From Allobosea sp. BK604 (lineage in GTDB: Bacteria > Pseudomonadota > Alphaproteobacteria > Rhizobiales > Beijerinckiaceae): DNA of 64,000 nucleotides. The stretch spans positions 434,001 through 498,000 of the forward strand of contig NZ_SLZF01000005.1 of assembly GCF_004341515.1 (NCBI RefSeq), read 5' to 3'. A program made the translations under genes and the position numbers. Below, piece after piece: positions 35,690 through 37,126 of the stretch. The notes below the pieces were generated by a model, which saw only the letters and a list, made by a program, of their open reading frames with translations, had not been told where the DNA came from and did no database searches. Each line of letters begins with the position of its first letter. The first letter of the stretch is position 1.

Positions 35690-35825
35690 ATTCTGTTTCC
35701 AGATCGCGCTTGCAAGGGCGCTTTAAGCGCGGCCTGTAACGGTCCGTTATGCTTTACGACCGGTTCGCGGTTGGATGGCCGGCCCGCGGCGGCTATGCCT
35801 GCAGCCATACCCGCATGGATTGAAC

Positions 35826-36104
35826 ATGATGGCCGCAGCCGCTCCCCTCCCGACCGTTGAGACCTACCTGCATATCCATGCGGAAAGCCCCGCGCTCGCA
35901 CGGATGGACCGCGCCATCGAGCAGCTCGGGGCTCAGGCCAGGTTGGTTGCGGCGATGCGCGGGCGGGCTCGGGCGTCGCAGATGGCTCCATCCACTGGAG
36001 CCCTTCGCTCGGTCCTGGCCATCCGGCAGATCGTCGCCTCGGTTCTTGGCGCGCAGGCCATGACCCCGCTTGCCGTCGCGGGCGAGAGCGCCGTCCCACA
36101 TTGA
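35826..36104 (+). CDS. Hypothetical protein (92 aa)
   Basis: A moderately helical product (AESPALARMDRAIEQLGAQAR) with no signal and no ribosome site of note. The opposite strand is also open. The plus frame is preferred because a plus-strand terminator follows at 36240, but that terminator probably belongs to the small RNA. Confidence 0.35.
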   Translation: MMAAAAPLPTVETYLHIHAESPALARMDRAIEQLGAQARLVAAMRGRARASQMAPSTGALRSVLAIRQIVASVLGAQAMTPLAVAGESAVPH

Positions 36105-36124
36105 TGTCCTGCTGACATCGTTAT

Positions 36125-36180
36125 CGTGCCGGCATCGATTTCTTGCCGGCATCGTTTTCTTGCCGGCATAATTTTCTTGG
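36125..36180 (+). repeat. Three tandem ~17 bp repeats
   Basis: TTCTTGCCGGCATCGTTT-like units occur three times in a row, just before the EcfG-type promoter. The last copy ends at the -35 element. Confidence 0.7.
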
Positions 36181-36203
36181 AACCAACGTGAGCCGCGGAC
36201 GTT
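36179..36203 (+). promoter_or_regulatory. EcfG-type (general stress) promoter, exact consensus
   Basis: GGAAC (36179-36183), 16 bases, CGTT (36200-36203), identical to the alphaproteobacterial EcfG/SigT consensus. No ORF follows; a terminator does, so it probably drives a small RNA. Confidence 0.75.
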
Positions 36204-36209
36204 TCCCTG

Positions 36210-36272
36210 CAGCTCTTGCGTTTAAGCCACGGTCCCTCAGCCCCCGTCAGCGCCTGCTGGCGGGGGCCTTTT
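36210..36272 (+). ncRNA. Predicted stress-induced small RNA (~60 nt)
   Basis: Start assumed 6-8 bases after the EcfG -10 element. The transcript would be about 30 bases of single-stranded, pyrimidine-rich sequence (TTCCCTGCAGCTCTTGCG...GGTCCCTCAG) followed by the terminator stem. Its ends are inferred; no ORF with a ribosome site is inside. C-rich single-stranded stretches can pair with Shine-Dalgarno sequences. Confidence 0.5.
36240..36272 (+). terminator. Strong intrinsic terminator (plus strand)
   Basis: GCCCCCGTCAGC pairs with GCTGGCGGGGGC (12 bp, one G-T mismatch) around a GCCT loop and is followed by CTTTTGGTTTT. Confidence 0.85.
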
Positions 36273-36540
36273 GGTTTTCGCTGCGCAGTTGCTGGAGGCG
36301 CGCGATCTCCGCGACCAGCTGCGCCACGGCAGCATCACCACGATGGTGCTTGATGCCCCTCGCCTCATCGCCCTCGCCGCCGGTCACGCCGTAGAGCATC
36401 GCCTTGCGCTTCTCCGCGGACATGTCGAGCAGGTAGGCGATCTCGCATTCGTGCTGCCATTCCCACGACCAGGTCGAGACGTCGCGATTGGCGAGCAGGC
36501 TGAAAGCCATCGGTTCATTGGCGAGGTCGCGGGTCGTCAT
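36247..36540 (-). CDS. Small hypothetical protein (97 aa)
   Basis: Contains WSWEWQHECEIAYLL and YGVTGGEGDEARGIKHHRG, then a coiled-coil-like end (AVAQLVAEIARLQQLRSEN). This layout recalls a family of short DUF proteins of Rhizobiales. Its last codons lie on the back of the terminator. Function unknown. Confidence 0.5.
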   Translation of the reverse strand: MTTRDLANEPMAFSLLANRDVSTWSWEWQHECEIAYLLDMSAEKRKAMLYGVTGGEGDEARGIKHHRGDAAVAQLVAEIARLQQLRSENQKAPASRR

Positions 36541-37101: not shown

Positions 37102-37126
37102 AACGGCGGCGAGACCTTCCGGTTCC
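37102..37126 (-). promoter_or_regulatory. EcfG-type promoter, exact consensus
   Basis: On the minus strand GGAAC (37126-37122), 16 bases, CGTT (37105-37102). The -10 ends 33 bases before the ATG at 37068. Confidence 0.8.

Follow-up and report, generated by a model that had tools for sequence, protein, structure and literature searches.

In the established pathway of the general stress response (GSR), stress releases sigma-EcfG from NepR. The alphaproteobacterial GSR has one well-studied small RNA (sRNA), GsrN, and others have been mapped by transcriptomics in rhizobia. Features of GsrN include processing to a 5' isoform and katG as a target. GsrN of Caulobacter is 106 nt long and has a C-rich 5' loop with six tandem C (PMC5869019). 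As far as the relatives of GsrN are treated in that report, most are found near the GSR locus, C. crescentus itself being an exception, and EcfG-driven relatives have been predicted in other Alphaproteobacteria (PMC5869019). In Sinorhizobium meliloti, motifs for sigma-E2 (RpoE2) were predicted upstream of 23 sRNAs, with array support in eight regions (PMC3616915); thus, EcfG-driven sRNAs are already known as a kind. For Bosea, we found no description of such RNAs in the open-licence literature at the level of the titles and abstract openings listed.

In this study, we analysed a stretch of 64,000 nt, designated here as the window, for which an initial annotation had proposed an EcfG-dependent small RNA. 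The proposal stands as a prediction: the unit, which consists of a promoter, a short non-coding stretch and a terminator, recurs amid unrelated flanks, and its layout is enriched in the genus. Judged from the sequence, the unit is very probably a genuine gene for a non-coding RNA under EcfG control, and Bosea has several families of such genes. We regard the candidate as well supported; its kind is known, its family new.

Organization of the predicted RNA gene

The sigma-EcfG promoter that had been reported for the locus was confirmed as an exact match to GGAAC-N16-CGTT on the plus strand at 36179-36203, with the -35 element GGAAC at 36179-36183, a 16-base spacer and the -10 element CGTT at 36200-36203. 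The strong terminator said to follow shortly after the -10 element was also found: after a gap of 36 bases comes a stem of 12 pairs (36240-36267), 10 of which are G-C, with a 4-nt loop and the tail CTTTTGGTTT; stem and tail (CTTTTGGTTTT) together make up an intrinsic terminator at 36240-36278 (+). Terminator-like sites numbered three in the 2.5-kb stretch around the unit vs 1.2 in shuffles, and the terminator by itself is therefore unremarkable.

Transcription would presumably start at 36209-36211, as expected from the usual spacing to the -10 element. Together with the terminator position, this start gives a predicted non-coding RNA of about 57-64 nt at 36209-36272 (+). It begins with a block of 12 bases, GCAGCTCTTGCG (36209-36220, +), which is identical in a second copy of the unit and which we propose as the pairing region. 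The conserved TTA at 36222-36224 and CCACG at 36227-36231 (+) lie downstream, so that the RNA would read GCAGCUCUUGCG..UUA..CCACG. The 5' part of the predicted RNA was unpaired in the centroid fold. It is pyrimidine-rich, as had been claimed, only mildly (19 of the 31 unpaired bases by our own count). Folding of the predicted RNA gave a z of -1.8 (11/200 window shuffles), and shuffles fold nearly equally well. No match to Rfam 15 was obtained in the window at gathering score, suhB/MmgR included, and the best sub-threshold scores were well under the cut-off (e.g., 13.9 vs 45 bits for Atu_C7).

The claim that no ORF lies between promoter and terminator held in part. Inspection by eye of the predicted transcript revealed no ORF that begins inside it with a start codon and a ribosome site. 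An 83-aa open frame (36143-36394, +), whose TTG start precedes the predicted transcript, does cross the unit, and the terminator extends into the final codons of an opposite-strand ORF (36247-36540). Just upstream of the EcfG promoter is a sigma-70-like site (9/12; 36143-36172), given which another sigma factor could contribute to transcription. This site is created by a 17-bp tandem repeat (CATCGTTTTCTTGCCGG, 3.8 copies; 36116-36179, +) that ends at the -35 box. The repeat was not found elsewhere in the genome when up to three mismatches were allowed, and inspection did not reveal it at the second copy.

A second copy in the same genome

BLAST with positions 36100-36300 against 61 genomes matched five of them. 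The window's own genome contains a second copy on another contig, at C2:337185-337279 (76% identity over query positions 78-173), and the other four genomes match over 31 to 42 bases. A wider comparison of the two copies aligned the unit alone (99 bp, 75.8%, E 1.9e-10), apart from one further weak match elsewhere in the stretch (42 bp, E 6e-4); without gaps, the flanks agree at 23/100 and 32/100 bases.

Identity is unevenly distributed along the unit. In the promoter, the -35 (5/5) and -10 (4/4) elements are fully retained and the spacer is identical at 10 of 16 bases; from the -10 element to the likely start, three of six bases agree. The unpaired 5' part is identical at 22 of 31 bases, among them all of the first 12 (GCAGCUCUUGCG), and the stem at 19 of 24, all 12 pairs being kept despite five substitutions. 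Four stem pairs differ between the copies, namely G-C to G.U, C-G to U.G, U.G to U-A and C-G to G-C, the last of which is by our reading the one altered on both sides. The comparison also removes the basis for using CCCTG and CCCTC as seeds in a target search, as suggested previously: the second copy has TTCCGC and GTCCTT at those places, and CCCTG (36205-36209) is situated at or before the likely start at 36209-36211.

These two copies, designated as family A, both look intact; as judged by the searches described here, the family is known in one genome only, and its conservation rests on this one pair, in which the promoter spacer, too, is fairly similar. A possible third copy at C1:369128 looks decayed and has no recognisable promoter. 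We also searched 66 other Bosea genomes with a covariance model built from the two copies, under the stricter filters that apply to sets of more than 40 genomes, and obtained no comparable match; the best score was 45 bits vs 114 and 117 bits for the copies from which the model had been built. Promoter and 5' block of family A had a single match in the named genome collection, which may omit the window's own genome; the match, in an Actinomycetes MAG, was without a terminator and was taken as chance. The plasmid and phage collections contained no match to the unit.

Frequency of the layout in the genome, the genus and the order

Matches to GGAAC-N16..18-CGTT are crowded in the window: 10 were found on both strands, whereas 100 shuffles averaged 0.87 and always stayed below 10. 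The genome has 160 EcfG sites in all, and 8 of the 104 exact sites examined had a strong terminator within 90 nt downstream, two of these eight units (C9, C15) coming from loci that had been fetched for holding a unit. The mirrored upstream side gave no such case, and 0.0 were expected from dinucleotide shuffles of the downstream side. In the genus, an EcfG site followed after 36-66 nt by GGGGCNTTT occurred at 27 places in 16 of 67 genomes, against one place for the reversed pattern and two, one homologous stretch, when the gap was shifted by 100. Six of the 27 places were set aside by eye as likely artefacts, leaving 21: five (G035, G007 C1, G077, G086 and G013) belong to one homologous hairpin with the promoter boxes within the stem arms, and the sixth (G067) is coding in appearance.

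A sample of the order yielded 31 places in 25 of 397 genomes, seven of them in Bosea. Outside Bosea, the 24 places vs 15 for the reversed control in this sample amount to no clear enrichment, and none of the 16 genomes from the family's other genera had the layout. We noticed similar places with an EcfG site and a hairpin outside Bosea in two sets, each within one genus (G336 and G209; G171, G295 and G374), which are perhaps further EcfG-driven small RNAs.

Other families of EcfG units in Bosea

The eight units that the scan found in this genome comprise two of family A (including that of the window), five of family B, characterized by GAGCGGGAUGCCAGUCCC..UCAUGAGACU and variants, and one near the GSR genes. 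Family C, with the core GGUCCCUUGCAUCACCAUGAACU, has two units, both missed by the scan because of the terminator tail in one and a 14-base spacer in the other. Family D (..CUCC..GACCAAGCCAACUC) occurs in other Bosea genomes, and nine copies were aligned. Within families B and D, the promoter spacer varies more than the RNA body does. Units of families B and C are located directly behind another hairpin, mostly terminator-like, and resemble tandem small-RNA arrays. Taken together, the sequences point to a larger Bosea set of EcfG-driven short units that have the promoter/terminator design in common and differ in their 5' ends.

On plasmid NZ_CP017947.1 of Bosea sp. Tri-49, an EcfG promoter, a family D RNA and a terminator are followed 94 bases on by a second EcfG promoter, a PepSY-domain gene, a hypothetical gene and another EcfG unit. 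The PepSY-domain and hypothetical genes, with their own EcfG promoter, are hence flanked by two EcfG RNA units (L127 9900-11200), and the Bosea sp. Tri-49 chromosome carries a similar pair of units. Other observations concern the window's own genome. A suhB/MmgR RNA (RF00519) is encoded at C2:27633-27712 (L115 13634-13713, -), and a family C EcfG unit follows about 170 bases downstream of it. Two loci similar to each other (L073 and L074; C1:919356 and C12:256328) have CTCACCGAAGGTACCCCA..CCTTCGGA and then a terminator of the GGCCCC(G/A)TCAGC type, with no EcfG site seen, and may perhaps represent another repeated small RNA.

Neighbourhood of the window unit

Seven other exact EcfG sites (N16/17) are present within 5 kb of the window unit, which accordingly belongs to a stress island; this island also contains a glutathione S-transferase gene, a DUF7696 gene and several small ORFs. 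The second copy lacks further exact EcfG sites within 5 kb, and this setting is therefore not common to both copies. An exact EcfG promoter on the minus strand at 37102-37126 is located upstream of the ORFs 37068-36781, 36766-36560 and 36540-36247, which we infer to form an operon. The last of these (36247-36540, -; 97 aa) encodes a DUF7696 protein (PF24751, E 4.3e-19, residues 21-86). It is convergent with the unit, and its 3' end overlaps the terminator; we consider it a neighbour outside the RNA gene.

The association with DUF7696 extends beyond the window. By our own count, 10 of the 21 retained genus units, the window's included, are within 6 kb of a DUF7696 gene, compared with about 0.1 expected by our own arithmetic; DUF7696 matches numbered 56 in 31 of 67 genomes. 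Units and DUF7696 genes may both be just markers of stress islands. No fixed synteny with DUF7696 was found among 30 loci of about 3 kb. A scan of the DUF7696 loci flagged exact units in the window and in G015 and a loose one in G070, and missed a unit in G062 (C5:3921-3998) that is 0.9 kb from DUF7696 and has a terminator under the threshold. A search of viral contigs yielded no relative of DUF7696.

Proposed function and alternative explanations

We propose that the unit is a stand-alone gene for an RNA of about 60 nt, transcribed by sigma-EcfG in the general stress response, ended by its own terminator and acting by pairing in trans; we assign this reading a probability of roughly 0.7. RNA polymerase with sigma-EcfG would transcribe the unit under stress and stop at the intrinsic terminator. 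The unpaired conserved 5' end (GCAGCUCUUGCG, UUA..CCACG) would most likely pair with target mRNAs in trans, and RybB is an example of an sRNA that pairs through its 5' end. Hfq would probably be bound at the U-rich 3' end of the RNA; both nepR and hfq genes are present in the genome. The sequence itself shows the anatomy of the unit, its conservation and the enrichment of the layout; from these we infer transcription, sigma-EcfG dependence, the start site, trans pairing, the use of Hfq and targets. Complements of the 12-nt block were found at 107 places with at most one mismatch, vs 341 for the reversed pattern, showing no enrichment, and 30 loci inspected among 100 candidate target places contained no convincing start-codon site.

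The terminator might instead mainly end the mRNA of an upstream ORF (35775-36104, +), the EcfG site being incidental or weak. Both have the same orientation, and 136 bases separate the end of the ORF from the stem, with no strong terminator listed in between. A terminator belonging to a longer coding transcript, which the initial annotation had named as a refuting case, may thus apply in the form of read-through from this ORF; it leaves unexplained the second copy, which retains promoter, 5' block and terminator as a set without the upstream sequence. Moreover, the ORF matches no Pfam family and is perhaps not a gene, and the enrichment of the layout speaks against an incidental EcfG site. We regard this explanation as improbable.

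Equally improbable in our view is a cis-antisense RNA directed at the 3' end of the DUF7696 transcript, which is convergent and here predicted to be EcfG-driven as well. Such a role would account for the overlap of the RNA with the last codons of the DUF7696 ORF and would agree with the frequent proximity of units to DUF7696 genes in the genus. It does not suit the second copy, which has no adjoining DUF7696 gene, the genome's DUF7696 matches being on C5 and C15 only. Among the 30 DUF7696 loci, the overlap occurs in the window only, as seen with a scan threshold that missed at least one known unit, and the conserved part of the RNA is outside the overlap.

Somewhat less probable still, the promoter could serve as a sink for sigma factor or polymerase, or the unit could insulate the stress island, with an RNA that has no target. 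The crowding of EcfG sites in this region and the outcome of the target search are compatible with this explanation, but an RNA without a target would hardly be expected to have its first 12 transcribed bases identical between the copies, against 10 of 16 in the spacer, or, as in families B and D, a body more constant than the spacer. The transcript is very unlikely to encode a very small protein: TTG at 36216 opens a frame without a stop up to the terminator, and the second copy reads TTG CGA TTA into the stem, but the frame has no ATG or GTG start and no ribosome-binding site by eye, its codons beyond the first three are not conserved, and it would cross the terminator stem.

Returning to the trans-pairing RNA gene as the preferred reading, we consider the set of Bosea units more interesting than the single RNA of the window. 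A tentative interpretation, to which we give less than even odds, is that Bosea has a rapidly diversifying set of short RNAs under EcfG control, numbering about ten units in this genome, in which a constant chassis of promoter and terminator is copied and then receives different 5' pairing sequences. If this is true, the post-transcriptional arm of the GSR would be specific to each Bosea species, in addition to a single GsrN-like RNA that is more conserved and located at the GSR locus. With several copy families that have a clear promoter and terminator, the genus would provide a testbed for how a stress regulon gains RNA regulators and would also allow a test of which part of the RNA selects targets.

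Comparison with known stress-regulated sRNAs

GsrN and the window unit are alike in having an EcfG-type promoter, a short non-coding RNA, its own terminator and a likely pairing region at the 5' side. They differ in length (106 nt for GsrN vs 57-64 nt predicted), a disparity too large for the window RNA to pass as GsrN on size. GsrN exposes a C-rich 5' loop; the window RNA lacks such a loop, and the longest C run in its unpaired 31 bases is three, outside any stable loop. The usual place of GsrN is near ecfG/nepR/phyR, as far as described, whereas the window RNA is on C5 and nepR on C2. The analogy with GsrN is therefore valid for control only, and the initial annotation had rightly restricted it to control and not sequence.

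A different EcfG unit lies at C2:612248, 3.4 kb away from nepR (C2:608844). This unit (C2:612164-612248; L123 13165-13249, -) contains the motif GCGCUCCC..GCGC. BLAST against 67 genomes gave matches in 19, most over the terminator only; apart from the own copy, five genomes match over the greater part of its length. Each of these five relatives shows GGAAC..GTT at the corresponding position, with GGTT replacing CGTT in one of them. When four relatives were aligned with the own copy, GCGCUCCC and GCGC were invariant; the two read as a short hairpin whose loop is C-rich, but this hairpin did not appear in the minimum-energy fold predicted for the own copy. A 292-aa ORF starts about 80 bases beyond the end of the unit, which may therefore serve as a leader. 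On these sequence features, we consider it a better candidate for a Bosea GsrN than the window RNA, though a candidate only.

The rhizobial sRNA family suhB/MmgR (RF00519) is present in this genome, and the window RNA is unlike it. By description, the sigma-E2 sRNAs of S. meliloti resemble the proposed RNA in being trans-encoded and in having promoters for a general-stress sigma factor, none being described in the account considered here as a repeated promoter-terminator unit (PMC3616915). The sigma-E-dependent MicA and RybB of E. coli differ from the window RNA in sigma factor group, sequence and targets, as far as they are described, but are alike in principle, in that an ECF sigma factor extends its response to the post-transcriptional level via short RNAs (PMC8103513).
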